From Labilithrix sp. (GTDB lineage Bacteria > Myxococcota > Polyangia > Polyangiales > Polyangiaceae), in contig JAQBQL010000040.1 of the NCBI GenBank assembly GCA_028287035.1, positions 1 through 15,886 of the forward strand: 15,886 nt of DNA, in the 5' to 3' direction. The notes beneath the pieces are model-generated. The model searched no databases, was not told the origin of the DNA, and worked only from the letters and a program-made list of their open reading frames with translations. This document shows positions 6,623-15,886 of this stretch, piece by piece (position 1 is the stretch's first letter; every line of letters begins with the position of its first letter). The position numbers and the translations under genes are program-made.

Positions 6623-8173
6623 CTAGAAGCCGAGCTGGGAGGCGGACTCCTGGTTCAGGCGGACCGAGGCCTTGCCCTCGCGTGACGACGGCGAGGCCGG
6701 GGCGGCGGCAACGGGAGCGCCGCGACCGAACGCATTGCCGGCGCCGCTCCCCTTCGCGTCGCCGGGCGGAGGCGGGGCGAAGCTGCGGTCGGCCTGGGCA
6801 ACCGCGCCGAGCTGGTCCTCGAAGTCGCGATCCAGGGACCTCGTCGCGCGCCGCGGGGCGGCGGTCGGGGCAGCAGCGGCGAACGCGAGCGAGGTGGTCT
6901 CGGAGCGCTTCAGCTCGTCCTTCCGGGCGGCGAGCTTCGCGCGGGCCTCGCCAGCGCGGCCGTCCTCGAACAGCTTGTTGGCCTCGGTCAGTGTCGCGGC
7001 GGTCCGGCTGCGTTCCACGCGCGCGGCCACGAAAGGATCGAGCTCACGCTGCTCCGAGCCGTCGCCGCGCACGGCGACCGCGAGGGCGCCGCCGCACGAT
7101 CCGTCGCTCTTCCTGGCGAGATCGCGGTACGCGAGCTTCACGTCCGCGACCGCCTGGGTGCCCTCGCGATCGGCCGGTACGCGAAGCTTCACGAGCACCG
7201 TCTTCTCCTGCTTCGCGCTGAACGTGCCGAACGGGACGATGAGCTTGTTGCCCTCGCGGCGGAAGCTCCGGTCGAACACCTCCGCGACCTCGACTCCCGG
7301 CGCGAGGTCGATGGCGAGCTCCGCCTCCTTCGCGACGGAGGCGAGCACGTCGTCGAACTCCTGCGAGAACACCGCGGGGAGGCCGCTCGCGTTGGCGACG
7401 AAGTAGTGGCGACCGTTCCCCTCGCTCGCGAGCGCGGCCATGACCTTCTCGTCGAAGTCGACGTCGACGCCGATCGTCGAGATGGTGACGCCCTTGCCGC
7501 CCATGCGGCTCGCCATCGCGCGGAGGCCCGGCATGTCCCGGATGCCGGAGTTGGTCGCGCCGTCCGAGAGGAGGATCATCCGGTTGACGTGGTCACCGCC
7601 GAGCGACGTCTGCGCGAGCTCGCGCATCGCCTCCTGCATGCCGCAGGAGATGCAGGTGTCGCCGCCCAGACGGATGGCGCGGATCGCGCTCTCGATGGCG
7701 GGGCGGCTGCCGGCGCTCACGCGCGTGGGGGCGACGACGACCTGCGCGGCCGCGTCGAACGCGACCACCGTGACGCTGTCTCCGTCGCGCAGCCGCTCGA
7801 TGGCAGTTACCGCGGCGTTGATGGCGTTCGCGATGCGGTCACCCTTCATCGAGCCGGAGCGATCGATGACGAGCGCGAGGTTCAGCGGGGCGCTCGCGCC
7901 GGCGCCCTGCCCGTCGGCGGCGGCGACCTGGGCGAAGAGGAAGGTCTCGCCGCGCCCGTTCTTCGCGATCGACGCGTGGCCGAGGCGCGCGTCGAGGGCC
8001 AGCGTGTCGCCGGCGACGACGCGCGACGGATCCGCGGGGTCGTCCACCTTTGCCCCCGCGGGCTCCTTCGTCACGGCGACCGCGCTGGCCGGTCCGGTCG
8101 GGATGGCGAAGGCCCCGGCCGTGCTGGCGAGGACTCCGGCGAGGGCGATGGCAACGGTGGTCTTCAGCTTCAT
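6623..8173 (-). CDS. Secreted von Willebrand factor A domain protein
   Basis: This exported protein carries a metal-binding vWA domain, probably acting in protein-protein contacts at the cell envelope. Residues 1-23 are a clear signal peptide (basic start, hydrophobic core, AFA cleavage site). The vWA domain runs from about 97 to 275. Its MIDAS residues are DRSGS at 104-108, T173 in GDTC, and SDG at 203-205. A CISC pair at 174-177 sits directly beside the MIDAS threonine and could form a disulfide. Residues 285-400 form a beta-rich region after the vWA domain. The last 100 residues are low-complexity (Ala/Pro/Arg-rich). The ATG at 8173 is preceded by GAGG (8180-8183) six bases away, a good ribosome-binding site, and an in-frame stop at 8227-8225 closes the frame upstream. 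The gene begins 58 bp after the redox operon, so it may or may not be co-transcribed. Its function is not known. Confidence 0.92.
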   Translation of the reverse strand: MKLKTTVAIALAGVLASTAGAFAIPTGPASAVAVTKEPAGAKVDDPADPSRVVAGDTLALDARLGHASIAKNGRGETFLFAQVAAADGQGAGASAPLNLALVIDRSGSMKGDRIANAINAAVTAIERLRDGDSVTVVAFDAAAQVVVAPTRVSAGSRPAIESAIRAIRLGGDTCISCGMQEAMRELAQTSLGGDHVNRMILLSDGATNSGIRDMPGLRAMASRMGGKGVTISTIGVDVDFDEKVMAALASEGNGRHYFVANASGLPAVFSQEFDDVLASVAKEAELAIDLAPGVEVAEVFDRSFRREGNKLIVPFGTFSAKQEKTVLVKLRVPADREGTQAVADVKLAYRDLARKSDGSCGGALAVAVRGDGSEQRELDPFVAARVERSRTAATLTEANKLFEDGRAGEARAKLAARKDELKRSETTSLAFAAAAPTAAPRRATRSLDRDFEDQLGAVAQADRSFAPPPPGDAKGSGAGNAFGRGAPVAAAPASPSSREGKASVRLNQESASQLGF

Positions 8174-8231: not shown

Positions 8232-10217
8232 TCACGAACGCCGGACGCCGGCCCGCGTCAGGAGATCCCACGACGGAACCCCGCCCACGAGGACGAGGAC
8301 CGCGTCGATCCGGAGCTGCCGCTGGCCGGTGCCGCCGACGTTGACGAGGGTCACGGTGCTCGCGCCGACCGCGACCGGAACGGTGTCGAAGAGGAGCTTC
8401 AGCCGGCCCTTGGCGACGAGATCCTTCACCTCGGCGATGTTGCGCGCCTTGCCCCGCCCGAACGTCGCGCCGCGGTACGAGACGGTCACGGCCGTCTCGG
8501 GCTGCCGCGCGATGGCGATGGCCGCCTCCATGGCCGCGTCCCCGAGGCCGACCACGAGGACGCGCTTGCCGGCGAAGCTGCGTGCGTCGGCGAGCGCGTA
8601 GCTGATCCGGCTCTCGGCGCCGGGCGCAAGGGCGAGGTCGAGGGTCCGCGGGGTGCCGCGGCGCCCGATGGCGACCACCACCCGCGCCGCCCGGTGCCGC
8701 TCGGCGCCCGCGGTGACCACGAAGGAGCCGGAGGGATCGCGCGCGATGTCCGTCACCCGCCGCTGCTCGCGGACGTCGAGGGCCCGCGAGCGGACGATGC
8801 GCGTCCACTGCGCGACGAGCTCCTCCTTCGTCGCTTCCTTCATCCAGAGCTCGCCCTCGGTCGGGAGCTCGAGGGGCGGATCGTAGATGATCTTGTCCCG
8901 CGGGAAGCTCTTCACGCTCGCCGCCACGGTGGCCTGCTCGAGCACGACGCACGAGAGCTTCTTCTCCTTGGCGCGAAGGGCGGCGCTGAGGCCGGCGGGA
9001 CCCGCGCCGATGACGAGCACGTCCACCTCGCCGGCGCCCGCGCGCGAGCCGGTGCGGGCGATGTGGTCGACGGCACGGACCCCCTGGTTGATGGCGTTCT
9101 TGATGAGGGGGAGGCCCGTGAGATCGCCGGCCAGGTAGAGGCCGGGCACGTCGACGCTCTCGAGGTGCTCGGTGACGCGGGGCTGGTCGGTCGCGAGCTC
9201 GCCCTCGCCGACGGTGAGGCTCCCGTTGGGGCACACCTGTTCGCAGAGGACGACGCCGCAGCACTCGTCGGGACGCGCGACGACCGCCACGTAGCGCTCA
9301 ATCGTGAGCACGTCGAAGGGACACACGTCGACGCACGCGTAGCAGCCGAGGCAGGTCGAGGCGTTCACGACCGGCAGGCGTTTGCGCTCCGGAGGACGCG
9401 CCGGCGGCGGCGCAGGCGTCGCGCGGCGACGTCGGCGATCGAGCAGCACCGCCGTCGTGACGAGCGCGGCGCCGGCGAACGCCCCGCCGAGCGGCGCGAC
9501 CGGCGTGCCGTGCCGCGGGGGCGGAGCGACCCAGGCCGTGGTCGTGGCGACCTCGCGCGCCGCGTCCCACGTCACGAGGCGTCCCTCGGCGCCGGTGACG
9601 CTGCTGTGCTCGTCGAAGCACAGGCTGGGCTGCTGGCCCACGCGGGGCCGCGCGGCCGAAGGGACGCACGCGGCGACCGGGTCACGCGGCGAGGACGGAT
9701 CATGGCAACGGGCGCACGCGGCGACCGCCACGAACGGAACGGTGGCGCCGGGCTTCACGACTCCAGGCGCCGTGTCGCGCAGCGTACCCGGCTGCTCGGC
9801 GCCCGCGCCCCACCGCACGAAGCTTCCGGCGGGGCCGAACGTGACGCCCTGCGCGCCTTCGTGCGCGGGGTGGCACGTCGCGCACGTGAGCTCGCCCTGC
9901 GCGGCGAGCCGGCGATGAGCAGGCCTCGTCGACACGTGGTCGGCGCCCGCGTGACAGGAGCGGCACGCCCCGGCGCGCATGTACGTCGCGGCCTCGGTGC
10001 CCGCGGGCGCGGCGTGACAGCTCGCGCAGGCGAGGGCATGCGTTGCGTGCGGACGGGCCATGACCCGCGGGCTACCGGCCGGGACCCCGCCGAGCGCGAG
10101 CACCGCAGCGGCTCCGAGGCCGGCCCCGAGCGCGGCGAGCCCGAGGACCCGCACGCGCGTGACGTCGCTCGACGGAGCGGCGCGCCTCGTGGTCCTTGGG
10201 CGGATGGGCGGGCTCAT
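8232..10217 (-). CDS. Tetraheme cytochrome c - ferredoxin - FAD/NAD(P) oxidoreductase fusion (gene C)
   Basis: This 661-residue protein appears to span the membrane and carry redox centres on both sides. Residues 23-43 are a membrane segment. Residues 45-238 hold four CxxCH heme sites (C64, C85, C112, C168). Residues 240-260 are a second membrane segment followed by RRRRR, which marks the cytoplasmic side, so the hemes should be periplasmic. A ferredoxin-like region follows, with C289/C292/C295/C299 as a normal 4Fe-4S motif and an unusual second set C319/C320/C325/C329. Next is an FAD-type segment, PGLYLAGDLTG (358-368) to NAINQG. Then come the dinucleotide fold GAGPAG (404-409) and an NAD(P)-type fold GLGDAAME (557-564), resembling YpdA and thioredoxin-reductase-like flavoproteins but with no CxxC disulfide. 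The order of the FAD segments looks circularly permuted. The start ATG overlaps the stop of gene B by four bases, implying coupled translation. It likely exchanges electrons between NAD(P)H and hemes; direction and partner are unknown. Confidence 0.92.
   Translation of the reverse strand: MSPPIRPRTTRRAAPSSDVTRVRVLGLAALGAGLGAAAVLALGGVPAGSPRVMARPHATHALACASCHAAPAGTEAATYMRAGACRSCHAGADHVSTRPAHRRLAAQGELTCATCHPAHEGAQGVTFGPAGSFVRWGAGAEQPGTLRDTAPGVVKPGATVPFVAVAACARCHDPSSPRDPVAACVPSAARPRVGQQPSLCFDEHSSVTGAEGRLVTWDAAREVATTTAWVAPPPRHGTPVAPLGGAFAGAALVTTAVLLDRRRRRATPAPPPARPPERKRLPVVNASTCLGCYACVDVCPFDVLTIERYVAVVARPDECCGVVLCEQVCPNGSLTVGEGELATDQPRVTEHLESVDVPGLYLAGDLTGLPLIKNAINQGVRAVDHIARTGSRAGAGEVDVLVIGAGPAGLSAALRAKEKKLSCVVLEQATVAASVKSFPRDKIIYDPPLELPTEGELWMKEATKEELVAQWTRIVRSRALDVREQRRVTDIARDPSGSFVVTAGAERHRAARVVVAIGRRGTPRTLDLALAPGAESRISYALADARSFAGKRVLVVGLGDAAMEAAIAIARQPETAVTVSYRGATFGRGKARNIAEVKDLVAKGRLKLLFDTVPVAVGASTVTLVNVGGTGQRQLRIDAVLVLVGGVPSWDLLTRAGVRRS
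10214..10217 (-). other. ATGA stop/start overlap, gene B to gene C
   Basis: The ATG of gene C (10217-10215) and the TGA of gene B (10216-10214) share four bases. This supports a single transcript with coupled translation and decides the start of gene C. No separate Shine-Dalgarno is evident. Confidence 0.85.
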
Positions 10218-12487
10218 CGGGCGCCCAGCGCAGTGACCACGTGGACGACGAGCAGCACGACGGCGGTCGCGGTCGCGGCGAGGTGGAGCGGCAGCATCGC
10301 CCGGATCGCCACCGTCAGGAGCCGCACCGAGCGCGCCGCGCGCTGCTCGACGAGCATACGCACGAGCTCGGCGACGCGCCCGCGATGCTCACCGAGGCGG
10401 CCCGCCGCGAGCGACGACGCGCGCGCTTCGAGCCGCGCTTCCTCGTCGCGAAGTCGCCGGCCGCTCAGCACGAGCGCCAGCGCGCCGAGCGGCTCTTGCC
10501 GGTAGGGCCGCAGGAGGCCGGCGTACACCGCCTTGACGACCTCGCTCGCGCCCGAGAGCTGCGCGTACATGCGCTCGTCGAGATCACGGGCGCGGGCCCC
10601 GAGCTCCTCCGGCAGCACGCTGCCGCGCTCGAGCCGCGTCAGGCGCGTGGGCAGGACGGCGTAGCCGATCGCGAGAGCGGCGCCGCTCGCGACGGCAACG
10701 CAAAGCGCGAGCAGGAGGGCGCCCGCCGCGTCGCTCGGCACGTGGCCGTGGGTGTGAGCGAGGACGACGCCGCACGCGAGCGCGCCGAGCGCGAGATGGG
10801 CCACGAAGAAGGCGCGCGCCAGCGGCACGCCGCTCCTCACCCGGGCGAGCACCCGGGGCGCGCGCTTCACGGCGCCGTACAAAACGAGGAGCATCACGAG
10901 AACGCCGGCGAGGACGCCGCTCGTGAGGGGGCCGAGCGGCGCGCCGGCCGCTCCGACCGCCGCGAGGCACGCGCCGACCACCCAGGGCCACGCCGCGGCA
11001 CGGCGGGGCATGATGGATGCCGGCGGTGCCGCAGGGAGCGCCCGCGTGAGCAGCCCGCGCGGCGCCTCGCGCAGCTCCACGAGGGCGGCGCTCGGATCGA
11101 TGCGCGCGATCGCCTGCACCGGGCATGCGTTCACGCACGCCGGCCCGGCGGCGGCGCCGGAGCACAGGTCGCACTTGACGGCGACGTCCGGGTAGGGCCC
11201 GGCGGCAGCGCGCGGCGCAATCTGGATGTTGTCCCACGGGCAGCCCTTCGCGCAGCTCCCGCAGCCGGTGCAAAGGTCCTCGCGGATGAAGACCTCGCCG
11301 CGCGCGTCGCGTCCGATCGCCCCGGTCGGGCAGTCGAGCATGCAGCTCGGGTTCTTGCAGTGCTGGCAGCTGTTCGGCACGAGCAGCGGCGCGAGCGGCG
11401 CGCCGGCGGCGAGGCGCACGAGACGCGCCACCGGGTCGTCGGGCGGCGGTACGTCCTCGCGCTGGACGACGACCTTGTCGCCGCGCCGGACGAGCCGCGA
11501 GATGCCGTCGTCGTGGACGTTCGCGCAGCTCCACGCGCAGTGGCCGCAGCGCACGCAGGCGTCCTGGTCGATGACGAGGAGCGACCGCGCGACGCGCATC
11601 CGGTAGAGATCGGCGAAGACGTGCCCGGTCGTCTGGGCTCCGCCCCGCGGCCGCTCGGGAACCATGCTGCTCCGCACGCGCGCCGCGGCCTCGAGGGCGC
11701 CTTCGTGACGTCGCGCGACCGACAGGAACAACTCGGAGGGCAGCGCGATCACCCACGCCGGGCCGCCCGCGACCATCGCGGTCCTCCGGCCCTCGCGCCG
11801 GCCGAGCTCCTCGTGTCCGAAGAGATCGCCTCGCGAGAGGTACGCCTCGATGCGCGGCCGGCCCACGTCCTCGCTCTGCGCCTGGAGGAGCCCGCTGGCG
11901 ACGAAGTACGCGTGGCTCGCCGGGTCGCCCTGGCGGTACACGTGCGCGCCGCGCGCCAGCGTCTCGTGGACCGCGGCGTCGAGCAGGAGCTCGATCTCGT
12001 CGTCGGGGAGCCGGCGCCCGAAGGCGGTCGCGCGGAGCAGATCCGCGGTCACGGCACGCCGGACGGAACGTTCGATGCGTCCCGCGTGCTCGCCGGCGGC
12101 GCTACGGCCGAGCGCGCGCGTCAGCACCGCGACGGGGATCTCCGCGACGAGCCCCCGCCCTTCGCTCCGCGCGTCCATGTGGCGCGCCGCGAACGCGACC
12201 ACCATCGCCTCTTCCCCGAAGCTCTCGCCGGGGAGCACGCGCCGGATGACCGCCGGCTCCGTCTCGCCGCGGCGCACCGCATGCAGGGTGACGAGCCCCT
12301 GCGCGACCACGAGGAGCGCGTCGGCCGGCTCACCCGCCCGGTGCACCGTCTCGCCGGGCGCCAGGTCGCGGAGCCGCCCTGCGGCCTCGATCTCGGCACG
12401 GGCCCGGGCGTCGAGCCCGCGGACGACCGCGGCGTCCCACACGAGGTCCGGCCACGTCATGGCGCGCGGCGGGGCGAGCACGTCCAT
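10214..12487 (-). CDS. Tandem cNMP-binding / four-cluster ferredoxin / diheme-b-like membrane protein (gene B)
   Basis: This 757-residue protein has regulatory and redox parts. Two CAP_ED-type cyclic-nucleotide-binding domains lie at about residues 24-150 and 165-275. Each has a phosphate-cassette-like block (PGESFGEEA at 87-94; LFGHEEL at 222-228, followed by RRTA). Residues 311-460 hold sixteen cysteines in four groups (C311/314/317/321, C374/377/382/386, C406/409/412/416, C439/442/451/455), the pattern of DmsB/NrfC-type proteins with four 4Fe-4S clusters. Five membrane helices follow at about 497-518, 522-543, 558-578, 587-612 and 727-751. Helices 3 and 5 each contain His-x13-His (H564/H578, H735/H749), as in diheme cytochromes b. 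Basic loops place the N-terminus, the Fe-S region and the 612-726 loop in the cytoplasm. The start ATG at 12487 overlaps the stop of gene A by one base. An upstream ATG at 12850 exists but would lie deep within gene A. It probably links gene C to the membrane and periplasm. Confidence 0.93.
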   Translation of the reverse strand: MDVLAPPRAMTWPDLVWDAAVVRGLDARARAEIEAAGRLRDLAPGETVHRAGEPADALLVVAQGLVTLHAVRRGETEPAVIRRVLPGESFGEEAMVVAFAARHMDARSEGRGLVAEIPVAVLTRALGRSAAGEHAGRIERSVRRAVTADLLRATAFGRRLPDDEIELLLDAAVHETLARGAHVYRQGDPASHAYFVASGLLQAQSEDVGRPRIEAYLSRGDLFGHEELGRREGRRTAMVAGGPAWVIALPSELFLSVARRHEGALEAAARVRSSMVPERPRGGAQTTGHVFADLYRMRVARSLLVIDQDACVRCGHCAWSCANVHDDGISRLVRRGDKVVVQREDVPPPDDPVARLVRLAAGAPLAPLLVPNSCQHCKNPSCMLDCPTGAIGRDARGEVFIREDLCTGCGSCAKGCPWDNIQIAPRAAAGPYPDVAVKCDLCSGAAAGPACVNACPVQAIARIDPSAALVELREAPRGLLTRALPAAPPASIMPRRAAAWPWVVGACLAAVGAAGAPLGPLTSGVLAGVLVMLLVLYGAVKRAPRVLARVRSGVPLARAFFVAHLALGALACGVVLAHTHGHVPSDAAGALLLALCVAVASGAALAIGYAVLPTRLTRLERGSVLPEELGARARDLDERMYAQLSGASEVVKAVYAGLLRPYRQEPLGALALVLSGRRLRDEEARLEARASSLAAGRLGEHRGRVAELVRMLVEQRAARSVRLLTVAIRAMLPLHLAATATAVVLLVVHVVTALGAR

Positions 12488-12489
12488 CA
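12485..12489 (-). other. TGATG stop/start overlap, gene A to gene B
   Basis: The TGA of gene A (12489-12487) and the ATG of gene B (12487-12485) share one base. This is the main reason for choosing 12487 as the start of gene B and points to termination-reinitiation on one transcript. Confidence 0.85.
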
Positions 12490-15400
12490 GTCGACTCGAC
12501 CCGTCGCTTCCGCGAGGTCGACGGGATGGTTGCGGCGCAGCATGGACGCCGTGATCTGCGGGCCGCTCGGGCGGAGCCCCTGCGCGGCCTTGCGCGCCTC
12601 GTAGTCGATGAACGCGCGGAGCAGGAACGGCGGAAACGGCCGGAAACGAAGGCGCGCCCGCACCGTGAACGGCCCGGGTCGTCCGCGCGTGTCGATGGCG
12701 TACACGTACGTGATCGGGACGCCGGGCGGCGCGGACCGCGTGTCGAGGATGGCATCGGGAGCCTTGGCGATGCCGCGGTCGGCATCGAGCCCGCCCACCG
12801 GGAAGTAGGTCTCGAAGAACGCGTTGGGGCCGGTCAGGTTCGAGCGGCACTCGCCGGTGTCGAGGTCGTAGGCGCCCTCGTCGAAGCGGTCGGCGCGCGT
12901 GCGGCCCTGATTGGGCCCTGGCTGGCAGCGGCCCTCACCGTCGATGACGCCGATGCAGCGCACGCAGCGGAGAAAACCGTTCTGGAAGTTCAGGAGCCCC
13001 TGCCCCCGGAAGCGCGTCCCGCCGAGGATGGGGTTCGGCGTCCAGCGCGGCACGTCGGGGCCGTCGACGACGTCGGCGCCGAACACGCCGAGCGGCCGGC
13101 CCTCGGAGTCCTGCGCGCCGTCGCCGGTGGTGACGCGCACGAAGGCCTTGTCCTGCAGGTCCGCGTCGTCGGCGGCGATGCGACCGACCTCGTAGACGAC
13201 GCCGCCGCGCGCGTCCTCGACGACGAGCTCGAGCCAGGTCTCGCGCTCCTGGCTGAAGCCCGCCGGGACCCGGTGGCCCGCGCCGACGTTCTCGAGCTGC
13301 ACCGGGATCTCGAGCTGGCTGCCGGCCCGCGCGGCGTTGCCGATCGCGAGCGAGAACGTGTGGCGGAGGAGCTGGAGGCGCCGCGCCTCGAGGCCGAGCG
13401 GCTGTCCGCTTGCGTCGAGCGTGCGGTCGTCGGCCCAGCGGTCCGGGAAGTCGGGGGCGAGCGGCAGATCCACGCTCGTGAAGTAGTGGCTCGCGACCGA
13501 GCCGGCGCTCGCCGACGTCGCGGCGGTCAGCCCGCGCGCCCGCTCGCCCGGGGCGCGCCCCTCGAACCGCGTCCCCGCCGGGCACCCGTCCTTGCCGCTG
13601 CCCGCGCCGGGAACGCAGACGCCCGGGTAGAGGCTCATGTGACAGTCCTGGCAGCTCGCGGCCTTCCGGCCGGCCGCCTTCTCGGTGTCCGCCCACGCGC
13701 GCCACTCCGAGTAGGCGTTCCGCAGCCGCTTGAAGTGCTCGCCGCGATCGCGCACGCCGACCGCGTCGGTGCCGAACAAACGAACGTCGTGGCAGGCGCC
13801 GCAGTGCTCGCTCGACGCGAGGTAGCTCTTCGCCGCGGCCGGCGGGCGCCGGTGGACGACCGGATCGCCGGGCACGGAGGCCCCGAGCGTGCGCACGAGC
13901 AGCGAGCCGGGATCGAGCTGGTAGCCGCTGTTGCCGATGCCAGGGATCCCCGCGCCGTCCTCGGGGCGCATCCGGAACACCGCGCCGGTGACGGGCGAGG
14001 TCCAGGTCGGGTTGCCCTCGTAGTCGCCGGTACGCGCGCCGCCCGCCACGTGGACGGGACCGATGGCCTGGTGACAGACCGCGCACGAGATGCCCTCCAT
14101 CGGCCCCGCCGGGAGGATGTCGCGGAGCGGCTGCCGAGACGACGTGCCCGCGGAAGAGAGCGACCGGGCGCTCCACGGCGGGACGGCGTCGGCGAGGGTG
14201 TTCGCCGCGGCGTGACAGTTCACGCACCAGTGCTCGCCGCCGGTGCCGGTCAGCGTCCGGCCGGTACGCTCGTCGCGGCACACCTCGCCTCCGGGCTTGC
14301 GGAGGACGCCCGCGCCGTTCGGGCAGCGCGCGTCGCGGCCGACCTGCTCCTCGACGACGCTCTCCAGCGCGCCGAAGAGCGGGCTCTTCGCGGCGTGCGC
14401 CATGACCGAGCGCTGCCACTCGGCGACCTCGCGCGCGTGGCATCCGGCGCACGTGCTCGAGAGCGTGCTGGTGAGCGGGCGGCGGTCGGCGATGTGCGGC
14501 GGGGCAGCCGGGAGCGGCGCGGTGGCGTGCGACGAAGCGACCCCGGCGAGCGCCGCGATCAGCCCGAGGACGAGCGGCGCCATGGTCAGCAGCACCCGTC
14601 GCAGCGGCGGGCCTCCCGCTGTGCGCACGGCCCGAGCCGGGCGCGACGCGGGCCGGGGCGCGGGCGGCGTGGAAATCGCGCGGCCGCGGGGCGGCGCGAT
14701 CCCGGAGAGCAGCTCGTCGCAGCGCTGCGCGATCGCCTCGGCCGACGCGGGACGGCGCGCCGGCAGCGGATCGATGAGCGCGAGCACGAGGCTCTGGAAG
14801 CCGGGACGGAGGGTGCGCGCGACCGCGTCGTCGAAGGGCGGCGGCGGCGCGGACTGGGCGGCGAGCGCGTCCCGGAGACCGGAGCCGGACCACGGATGAT
14901 GCCCGGCGACGAGACGGTAGGCGACGAGGCCGAGCACGTACCGGTTCGCGGCGTTGTCCCACGGCGCCCCGCTCGCCTGCTCGGGCGGGGTCCACCGCGG
15001 CGAAGGCCCGCTGCTTCCGCCCTGACGCGCGGGCTCGCCGACGAGCGACCGCACGTATCCCTCGGCGGTGATCCAGGCCTCGAGGCGCGACCCTTCGCCG
15101 AGGGCGATCTCGCCCGGCCGGAGCGGCCCCGGGAAGAGAGCGGCGCGCTCGCACGCGGCGAGCGCCCGCGCCACGTCACGGACCCTGGCGAGCGCCTCCA
15201 GCGGGTCGAGACGCTCGCCCCGTCCGAGCCGCTCCACCGTGAGAGCCGGGACGCGGCGCACCGCGAAGGCGCCGAGCGCGTCCTGCCCCCAGCCGAGATC
15301 GAAGCCGCCGACCCCCTCCGCCCCGAGCCGCGCGAGGCGGCGGGCGAGCGCCTGATCCGTCTCCGGCAGGCTCCACAGCTCGGCAACCCCGCCTGACGAA

Positions 15401-15519
15401 AGCGTGCAGGATGCACGCGACGCGCGGCCCACCGGATCGAGCGGGGCGCCGTGCTCCGGCCGCGTGACCGCGGGCACCTCGCCGGCCCCGCCCGCCAGGC
15501 CGCTGCGCGGACCGAGCAT
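12487..15519 (-). CDS. Pseudokinase - membrane span - pentaheme cytochrome c fusion (gene A)
   Basis: The 1010-residue protein has two unlike halves. Residues about 40-275 align by eye with a Ser/Thr kinase fold. The VAxK-like strand is AFAVRRV (84-90), with Arg for Lys. The catalytic loop is PGPLRPGEIAL (130-140), with no His-Arg-Asp and Glu for Asn. No DFG is found. The APE-like PPE (178-180), the YVLGLVAYRLVAG helix and DPLPARRP (250-257) are retained, so it is probably a pseudokinase. After a Pro/Ala/Arg linker, residues 309-330 form one membrane helix preceded by two Arg, placing the kinase-like part in the cytoplasm. Outside are five CxxCH sites (C357, C432, C479, C573, C623). Next comes a beta-rich domain containing NVGAGHRVPAGF (744-755), typical of multiheme cytochromes, and a CVRCI cysteine pair at 852-856. 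The start ATG lies two bases after the upstream gene. It likely forms the periplasmic heme end of a complex with genes B and C and may pass a signal across the membrane. Confidence 0.92.
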   Translation of the reverse strand: MLGPRSGLAGGAGEVPAVTRPEHGAPLDPVGRASRASCTLSSGGVAELWSLPETDQALARRLARLGAEGVGGFDLGWGQDALGAFAVRRVPALTVERLGRGERLDPLEALARVRDVARALAACERAALFPGPLRPGEIALGEGSRLEAWITAEGYVRSLVGEPARQGGSSGPSPRWTPPEQASGAPWDNAANRYVLGLVAYRLVAGHHPWSGSGLRDALAAQSAPPPPFDDAVARTLRPGFQSLVLALIDPLPARRPASAEAIAQRCDELLSGIAPPRGRAISTPPAPRPASRPARAVRTAGGPPLRRVLLTMAPLVLGLIAALAGVASSHATAPLPAAPPHIADRRPLTSTLSSTCAGCHAREVAEWQRSVMAHAAKSPLFGALESVVEEQVGRDARCPNGAGVLRKPGGEVCRDERTGRTLTGTGGEHWCVNCHAAANTLADAVPPWSARSLSSAGTSSRQPLRDILPAGPMEGISCAVCHQAIGPVHVAGGARTGDYEGNPTWTSPVTGAVFRMRPEDGAGIPGIGNSGYQLDPGSLLVRTLGASVPGDPVVHRRPPAAAKSYLASSEHCGACHDVRLFGTDAVGVRDRGEHFKRLRNAYSEWRAWADTEKAAGRKAASCQDCHMSLYPGVCVPGAGSGKDGCPAGTRFEGRAPGERARGLTAATSASAGSVASHYFTSVDLPLAPDFPDRWADDRTLDASGQPLGLEARRLQLLRHTFSLAIGNAARAGSQLEIPVQLENVGAGHRVPAGFSQERETWLELVVEDARGGVVYEVGRIAADDADLQDKAFVRVTTGDGAQDSEGRPLGVFGADVVDGPDVPRWTPNPILGGTRFRGQGLLNFQNGFLRCVRCIGVIDGEGRCQPGPNQGRTRADRFDEGAYDLDTGECRSNLTGPNAFFETYFPVGGLDADRGIAKAPDAILDTRSAPPGVPITYVYAIDTRGRPGPFTVRARLRFRPFPPFLLRAFIDYEARKAAQGLRPSGPQITASMLRRNHPVDLAEATGRVD

Positions 15520-15521
15520 CG

Positions 15522-15886
15522 TCAGGGCGTCGCGGGCCGGGCGCCCGGATCGACGCTGGCGCTGGTGGTGATCGACGACGACCCCGGCGCCGCGCTCCGG
15601 ATGCGGAGCAGGTACGTCGACAGGCCGGCGGCGAGCGAGAGCGCCACGATCACCACCAGCGCGAGCCAGGTCGGCACCTCGCGTGATCGTCGGGCGTTGC
15701 CCTCCACGAGCGCCACCGTGTCGGTGCGCGGCCGTCCGGCCGGAGCGGGAGCCTCGACCCCTGCCGCACCGCGGGCGAACGGGGCGCCCGAGTGACGCGT
15801 GTCGCCCGTCCGTCCCGCCGGCGTGGGCGAGGCGGGCGCCTCCGGCATGCGCGAGGTGTGCGGCGCCGCCTCGGCCCGCGCCGACG
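15522..15886 (-). CDS. Single-span membrane protein of unknown function, C-terminal part (5' end likely outside window)
   Basis: The reading frame stays open to the window edge, so the gene probably begins upstream. The ATG at 15848-15846 (108 residues) is a possible internal start. The visible part is rich in Ala, Pro, Gly and Arg. It has one hydrophobic segment (PTWLALVVIVALSLAAG and following, about 27-50 residues before the C-terminus in the central tail) flanked by basic residues on both sides. After it comes a short Ser/Thr/Pro tail. There is no cysteine, heme site or recognisable domain. The stop is two bases before the start of the pseudokinase-cytochrome gene, so it very likely belongs to the same operon. 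It could be the C-terminal anchor of a larger regulatory or assembly protein. I do not recognise it. Confidence 0.5.
   Translation of the reverse strand, partial: SARAEAAPHTSRMPEAPASPTPAGRTGDTRHSGAPFARGAAGVEAPAPAGRPRTDTVALVEGNARRSREVPTWLALVVIVALSLAAGLSTYLLRIRSAAPGSSSITTSASVDPGARPATP

Follow-up and report, generated by a model that had tools for sequence, protein, structure and literature searches.

A conserved three-gene unit of myxobacteria and the transmembrane NAD(P)H:multiheme-cytochrome oxidoreductase that it may encode

Three overlapping genes of a Labilithrix sp. contig (A, B and C) constitute a conserved unit, and we judge their products to form a real complex, apparently undescribed so far, which would act as a transmembrane oxidoreductase built from a new set of parts; among the titles and abstract openings listed by searches of the open-licence literature, none combines these parts. 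The unit lies in a stretch of 15,886 nucleotides (assembly GCA_028287035.1, contig JAQBQL010000040.1), which is called the window below. An electron path that led straight from NAD(P)H to periplasmic heme, bypassing the route through dehydrogenase and quinone, would to our knowledge be unusual; if it is real, soil myxobacteria have a means, controlled from the cytoplasm, of carrying reducing power over the inner membrane.

The mechanism that we favor, and that we hold as a whole to be moderately probable, would settle cofactor loading, electron order, topology, direction, acceptor and regulation in the following way. A, B and C would be one inner-membrane oxidoreductase, in which (i) NAD(P)H would reduce the FAD of C in the cytoplasm; (ii) electrons would pass from the ferredoxin clusters of C to the four clusters of B; (iii) they would cross the membrane via two b hemes on the His helices of B, the inner one between H564 and H735 and the outer one between H578 and H749; and (iv) in the periplasm the tetraheme part of C and the pentaheme part of A, nine c hemes together, would deliver them to a periplasmic acceptor. 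The pair of CNB domains in B and the pseudokinase of A would face the cytoplasm and would probably set activity or assembly, the neighboring Ser/Thr kinase being a likely partner. The invariant ligands described below support such a route, which starts at NAD(P)H and leads via flavin, Fe-S clusters and the membrane to heme in the periplasm.

Results

Layout of the Unit and Its Neighbors

An earlier note on this DNA had described three overlapping genes with certain cysteine, heme and membrane motifs, a description borne out by the open reading frames and the motif scan (Table 1), with A and B overlapping by one base and B and C by four. The unit reaches past the trio on both sides, to the tail of a kinase gene (K) upstream of A and to a gene with a VWA domain downstream of C.

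Table 1. Features of the unit, in positions of the window
Feature	Position	Strand	Basis or remark
Gene K: C-terminal tail (with TM) of a Ser/Thr kinase gene	15522..15884	minus	homology to L003; cut by window end
Gene A: pseudokinase - TM - pentaheme cytochrome c	12487..15519	minus	ORF of 1010 aa; alignments A1, A5
A, pseudokinase domain, residues about 14-276	14692..15480	minus	cytoplasmic by charge bias; PknA match
A, single TM helix, residues about 309-329	14533..14595	minus	net +4 on N side
A, predicted periplasmic pentaheme region, with eight further invariant Cys	12490..14502	minus	alignments A1, A5
Gene B: CNB-CNB - four [4Fe-4S] - diheme-b-like membrane domain	10214..12487	minus	ORF of 757 aa
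B, tandem CNB domains	11633..12445	minus	Pfam PF00027
B, four-cluster ferredoxin domain (DmsB/FdnH type), 16 invariant Cys	11123..11557	minus	alignment of 27 sequences
B, membrane domain, about five TM helices; H564/H578 and H735/H749	10217..10996	minus	alignment A4
Gene C: TM - tetraheme - TM - 8-Cys ferredoxin - FAD/NAD(P) flavoprotein (circularly permuted by motif order)	8232..10217	minus	ORF of 661 aa
C, predicted periplasmic tetraheme domain, residues 57-235	9513..10049	minus	between TM helices about 22-43 and 240-259
C, 8-Cys ferredoxin domain	9198..9374	minus	alignment; eight Cys invariant
C, flavoprotein, Pyr_redox	8235..9176	minus	FAD segment AGDLTG before GxGxxG segment
VWA-domain protein, probably secreted, conserved neighbor	6623..8173	minus	Pfam VWA; homologs

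Over 96 residues, the tail of K shares 60% identity with the end of K in locus L003, whose K is a Pkinase match (1.7e-52). Among the loci that we call class 1, a kinase gene on the same strand stands upstream of A in 11 of the 13 that have upstream sequence, the exceptions being L011, where no kinase gene lies directly upstream, and L035, where it is on the opposite strand; all 11 of these genes carry HRD plus DFG or DLG strings, and the four that were scanned are Pkinase matches. The VWA protein has a homolog in 13 of 19 class-1 loci, mostly close behind C, 3-4 kb further on in L010 and L031, and on the other side in L035. One locus (L011:16766-20547) holds an aldehyde-oxidase-type molybdopterin protein with its FAD subunit, 2.3 kb downstream of C. 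The named relatives of the A, B and C proteins are mostly from Labilithrix or other myxobacterial MAGs.

Co-occurrence and Gene Order

The phylum set comprises 282 genomes from the phylum of G001 (the genome of L003), with the best few candidates per genome scored. Full-length A (E = 0) occurs in nine of them, and these are also the nine that have B at E <= 1e-100; full-length C occurs in eight of the nine, the C of the ninth (G228) being cut at a contig edge; weaker matches, mostly partial, are found for B in 23 (E <= 1e-40), for A in 37 (1e-10) and for C in 77 (1e-50). Within the family (108 genomes, E <= 1e-100), 44 genomes have A, 45 have B and 47 have C; the full trio is present in 42 and none of the three in 59, many of the genomes being MAGs of unknown completeness and co-occurrence within one family being partly a matter of descent. 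Both members of a pair lie on one contig in 39 of the 43 genomes with A and B (within 200 bases in 32) and in 39 of the 44 with B and C (within 200 bases in 34). Genes mostly apart in relatives would, by the earlier note, have refuted its proposal; they are mostly found together and adjacent, in one order.

The class-1 loci number 19, six of them from whole genomes and 13 from a search with the B alignment (12 titled myxobacterial and one “Deltaproteobacteria bacterium”). A is directly upstream of B in all 19, and C directly downstream in 16, the contig ending in the other three; A is broken into several ORFs in L006, and several loci have an A or a C that is incomplete where the contig stops. 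Since the trio recurs in many genomes, an artefact of assembly or frame is rejected. A strict operon is argued against by G331, in which A lies 11.7 kb from B on the opposite strand, and by seven other genomes with gaps of 0.8-5.7 kb inside the unit; in the five gapped genomes that were read, 5.2-5.7 kb separate B from C. The insert between B and C amounts to one or two extra genes, which include one for a protein with PPC and DUF4215 in L060, L061 and L063, and one for a 967-aa protein with a weak VWA match in L067. A B-like gene stands on a contig that has no C-type gene in L036, L041 and L049 (short contigs) and in L042 (a distant B-like gene on a 16-kb contig), four loci that were assigned to no class, and the 12,191,466-base contig of Labilithrix luteola has matches to A and C and no B protein among the 120 matches listed.

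Pseudokinase and Pentaheme Cytochrome of A

The kinase-like domain that had been read in A is there, with a PknA match over residues 98-291, but it is a pseudokinase: PGP stands in the window in place of HRD and AEG in place of DFG, and among 25 A sequences the HRD string is found in one and the D[FLYM]G string in one. An active Ser/Thr kinase in A is thus rejected, as these motifs are missing. The five heme motifs expected of A are there, as CXXCH at 357, 432, 479, 573 and 623 in the window, and five are kept in 25 of 25 sequences, and the A of L034 keeps the cytochrome part with the kinase domain absent. In the predicted model of A the pLDDT is mostly near 90 in the pseudokinase region, while the heme part is poor and gives no usable heme region.

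CNB Domains and Fe-S Clusters of B

As had been proposed, B contains two cyclic-nucleotide domains, both stretches exceeding the Pfam cut-off for cNMP_binding (PF00027), our measure of the CNB fold; in the fold searches with the model of B, the best 50 of 932 and the best 50 of 981 rows are CNB matches. R102 and R234 are invariant and align with the Arg of a phosphate-binding loop of PKA, and cyclic-nucleotide binding by the pair is at most plausible.

The four [4Fe-4S] clusters ascribed to B likewise find their ligands, all 16 Cys being invariant in 27 of 27 aligned sequences; this invariance comes from the alignment, as the regular expression for four clusters, with its narrow gap limits, matched 15 of the 27 rows. 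The domain matches the FdnH chain 1kqf_B at 7.5e-13 and reaches no NCBIfam equivalog cut-off, and the predicted model of B is poor in this part.

A Candidate Diheme Cytochrome b

The membrane domain of B had been described as bearing a His pair; paired His were indeed found, but as four invariant residues in two pairs and not as one pair. The two H-x13-H pairs are kept in 28 of 28 sequences of alignment A4, which covers all gene arrangements, including those where the membrane domain is a separate protein, and four of its eight invariant columns are His. Of 32 membrane parts available, 28 went into A4, all but L005, L006, L036 and L040; by a simple string test, two H-x13-H occur in 31 of 31 whole ORFs with a membrane match, among which the match in L040 may be due to chance, its frame stopping short of the second helix in a separate alignment. 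A diheme cytochrome b needs paired His on two equally oriented helices, and the charge bias gives TM3 and TM5 of B the same orientation, so that inner His can pair with inner His. Because both helices are invariant, even in the separate proteins, two b hemes in this domain are likely.

The domain of the window's B has no Pfam match, Ferric_reduct included, and a profile search of the PDB gave no sensible match; among the 28 members there are weak matches to DUF4405 (6/28), to Ni_hydr_CYTB (PF01292; 5/28, best 1.9e-7) and to Ferric_reduct (3/28, best 0.0069). The unit also brings to light a conserved membrane domain, probably one that binds heme, which Pfam does not match in the window's B. The matches to PF01292, together with that of the Fe-S domain to FdnH, would suit a quinone-reactive cytochrome b as in formate dehydrogenase N, with NAD(P)H or the periplasmic hemes trading electrons with the quinone pool and not directly with one another; however, c hemes on the outer side are always present, and a simple NAD(P)H:quinone enzyme would have no need of them, so we consider this reading unlikely, if the best placed of the alternatives to the mechanism that we favor.

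Tetraheme, Ferredoxin and Flavoprotein of C

The tetraheme part of C stands as it had been read, with four CXXCH between two TM helices; 26 of 28 C sequences have four and the other two have five. Given that five are kept in every A and four or five in every C, these motifs are not the product of chance. The FAD/NAD(P) folds and ferredoxin clusters previously assigned to C also recur, as the Pyr_redox match and the 8-Cys domain. The FAD segment AGDLTG precedes the GxGxxG segment in 28 of 28 sequences, and with the alignments to 3ab1 and 7a7b this order marks the flavoprotein, as judged from sequence, as a circularly permuted member of the thioredoxin-reductase type without CxxC. A single Cys (423) follows the ferredoxin part, and a thioredoxin or bacillithiol disulfide reductase was rejected, since the redox-active CxxC is lacking. 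A relative of the flavoprotein core in the C-terminal portion of C (window 8235-9374) is found in 77 of the 282 phylum genomes (E <= 1e-50), mostly without a class-1 B; being so widespread by itself, the ferredoxin-flavoprotein core has other uses.

All the types of carrier named here are reversible in principle, and the domains found do not fix the direction of flow. A periplasmic donor could thus feed the c and b hemes, then the Fe-S clusters and FAD, with the membrane potential driving the reduction of NAD(P)+; yet the conserved genes K, A, B, C and VWA include no periplasmic donor enzyme, and we regard such a reverse run as distinctly improbable beside the outward flow that we favor.

Relatives With Separated or Fused Modules

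In class 2 (L037-L040), the gene after B encodes a long C-type protein that combines the flavoprotein with six or seven CXXCH, and FHA domains are present in all four loci (3, 4, 3 and 1 stretches). In class 3 (L043, L044), the CNB-4Fe4S part, the membrane domain and a nine-CXXCH protein are separate frames, the last including the flavoprotein in L044 and being cut by the contig end in L043. In class 4 (L045-L048), a single chain of 1,006-1,052 aa reads FHA-FAD/NAD-CNB-CNB-4Fe4S in 4/4 (Pfam), with the flavoprotein in normal order, and the b-type membrane protein follows it separately. CNB domains occur in all classes, the pseudokinase in class 1, and FHA in classes 2 and 4. Modules that one lineage keeps apart are thus joined in another while the invariant His stay the same, which is good evidence for one complex.

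Two further proteins, both belonging to class-4 loci, join FHA and one TM helix to a ten-CXXCH cytochrome (L047:11173-13092 and L050:4119-5915), an unusual electron-transfer protein of phospho-binding type; the matching ten-CXXCH protein of L045 shows no FHA match at 1e-5. Near a class-4 locus, a 1,302-aa protein combines ten CXXCH with LVIVD repeats (L052:220-4128).

Discussion

The earlier note had supposed that the three products form one complex, and co-occurrence, the single gene order and the re-fusion of modules make it very likely that they act together. It had also seen built-in sensors in the CNB and kinase-like domains, which they may be; the kinase domain is degenerate and, in the A of L034, absent. 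The least credible of the alternatives is a redox-signaling device outside respiration, in which a low flow of electrons between NAD(P)H and periplasmic hemes would be read by CNB, pseudokinase or FHA with the adjacent kinase. In its favor are the recurrence of cytoplasmic signaling domains on these electron-transfer proteins across classes and the HRD/DFG-bearing kinase gene that stands before A, with the same orientation, in 11 of the 13 class-1 loci that have upstream sequence; against it, a sensor would not be expected to need so many cofactors, and the A of L034 retained its cytochrome part without the kinase domain. Under the oxidoreductase mechanism, the presence of CNB, pseudokinase and FHA on electron-transfer proteins makes the regulation of a transmembrane electron step testable.

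With regard to the acceptor, none was recognised among the ORFs scanned. The extracellular acceptors that had been suggested do not find support in class 1: MtrB_PioB and an MtrA-like decaheme each have 0/13 matches in class-1 genomes, a set in which many assemblies are incomplete and which does not include the genome of the window. As no outer-membrane parts of Mtr type were found in these 13, a periplasmic acceptor is likelier, and extracellular electron transfer of that type, not supported for class 1, is kept open for the class-4 locus of G105. There (L046:7305-11227, L050:1004-4122) an MtrA-like decaheme and a likely outer-membrane barrel lie within 8 kb: the decaheme matches 6r2q_A at 1.4e-31, an entry which we take to be MtrCAB (the chain is titled otherwise in the structure listing), and a 708-aa protein with sub-threshold beta-barrel matches overlaps its gene by one base, the Pfam MtrB_PioB model giving no match on this contig. 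Set against the 0/13 of class 1, these neighbors suggest that outlets may differ between lineages.

More tentatively, the units could be members of a new superfamily of transmembrane oxidoreductases that pass electrons between NAD(P)H and multiheme cytochromes and are subject to regulation. Their common core of flavoprotein, CNB-4Fe4S, diheme b and multiheme c would be gated from the cytoplasmic side, both by second messengers and by phosphosignaling through kinase, pseudokinase or FHA, and the periplasmic outlets would differ by lineage; we would still call so wide a grouping doubtful.

Comparison With Known Systems

Two known systems resemble portions of the proposed unit. The YpdA/thioredoxin-reductase-type flavoproteins (7a7b, 3ab1) share the FAD and NAD(P) folds of C, whereas C appears circularly permuted, is fused to ferredoxin and tetraheme parts, and has no redox CxxC. 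The MtrCAB-type conduits likewise have a chain of multiheme c cytochromes after an inner-membrane step, but the 13 class-1 genomes gave no match to MtrB_PioB or to an MtrA-like protein.

The membrane step itself has two counterparts. In formate dehydrogenase N (FdnH and FdnI, 1kqf) a four-cluster ferredoxin is coupled to a diheme b membrane part, which we take FdnI to be; B differs in that it fuses the Fe-S and membrane parts, has its Fe-S domain predicted on the cytoplasmic side and adds CNB domains, and the unit has a flavoprotein and multiheme c partners. A molybdopterin subunit is absent from the eight window ORFs scanned, and the one in L011 was not seen as a conserved member; membership of the unit in the formate dehydrogenase type is unproven.

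NADPH oxidases and ferric reductases have NAD(P)H and FAD inside, two bis-His b hemes across the membrane and an acceptor outside. The unit resembles them in its presumed NAD(P)H-FAD side, in the two His pairs on two TM helices (28/28 in A4) and in a putative outside acceptor; it differs from them in a flavodomain of TrxR type and not FNR type, in the intervening Fe-S clusters and in the multiheme c outside, and Pfam Ferric_reduct does not recognise the window's B, with the weak matches confined to 3/28 members. In summary, by analogy, the mode of working would be that of formate dehydrogenase N, passing electrons from Fe-S clusters to a diheme b, crossed with that of NADPH oxidase.
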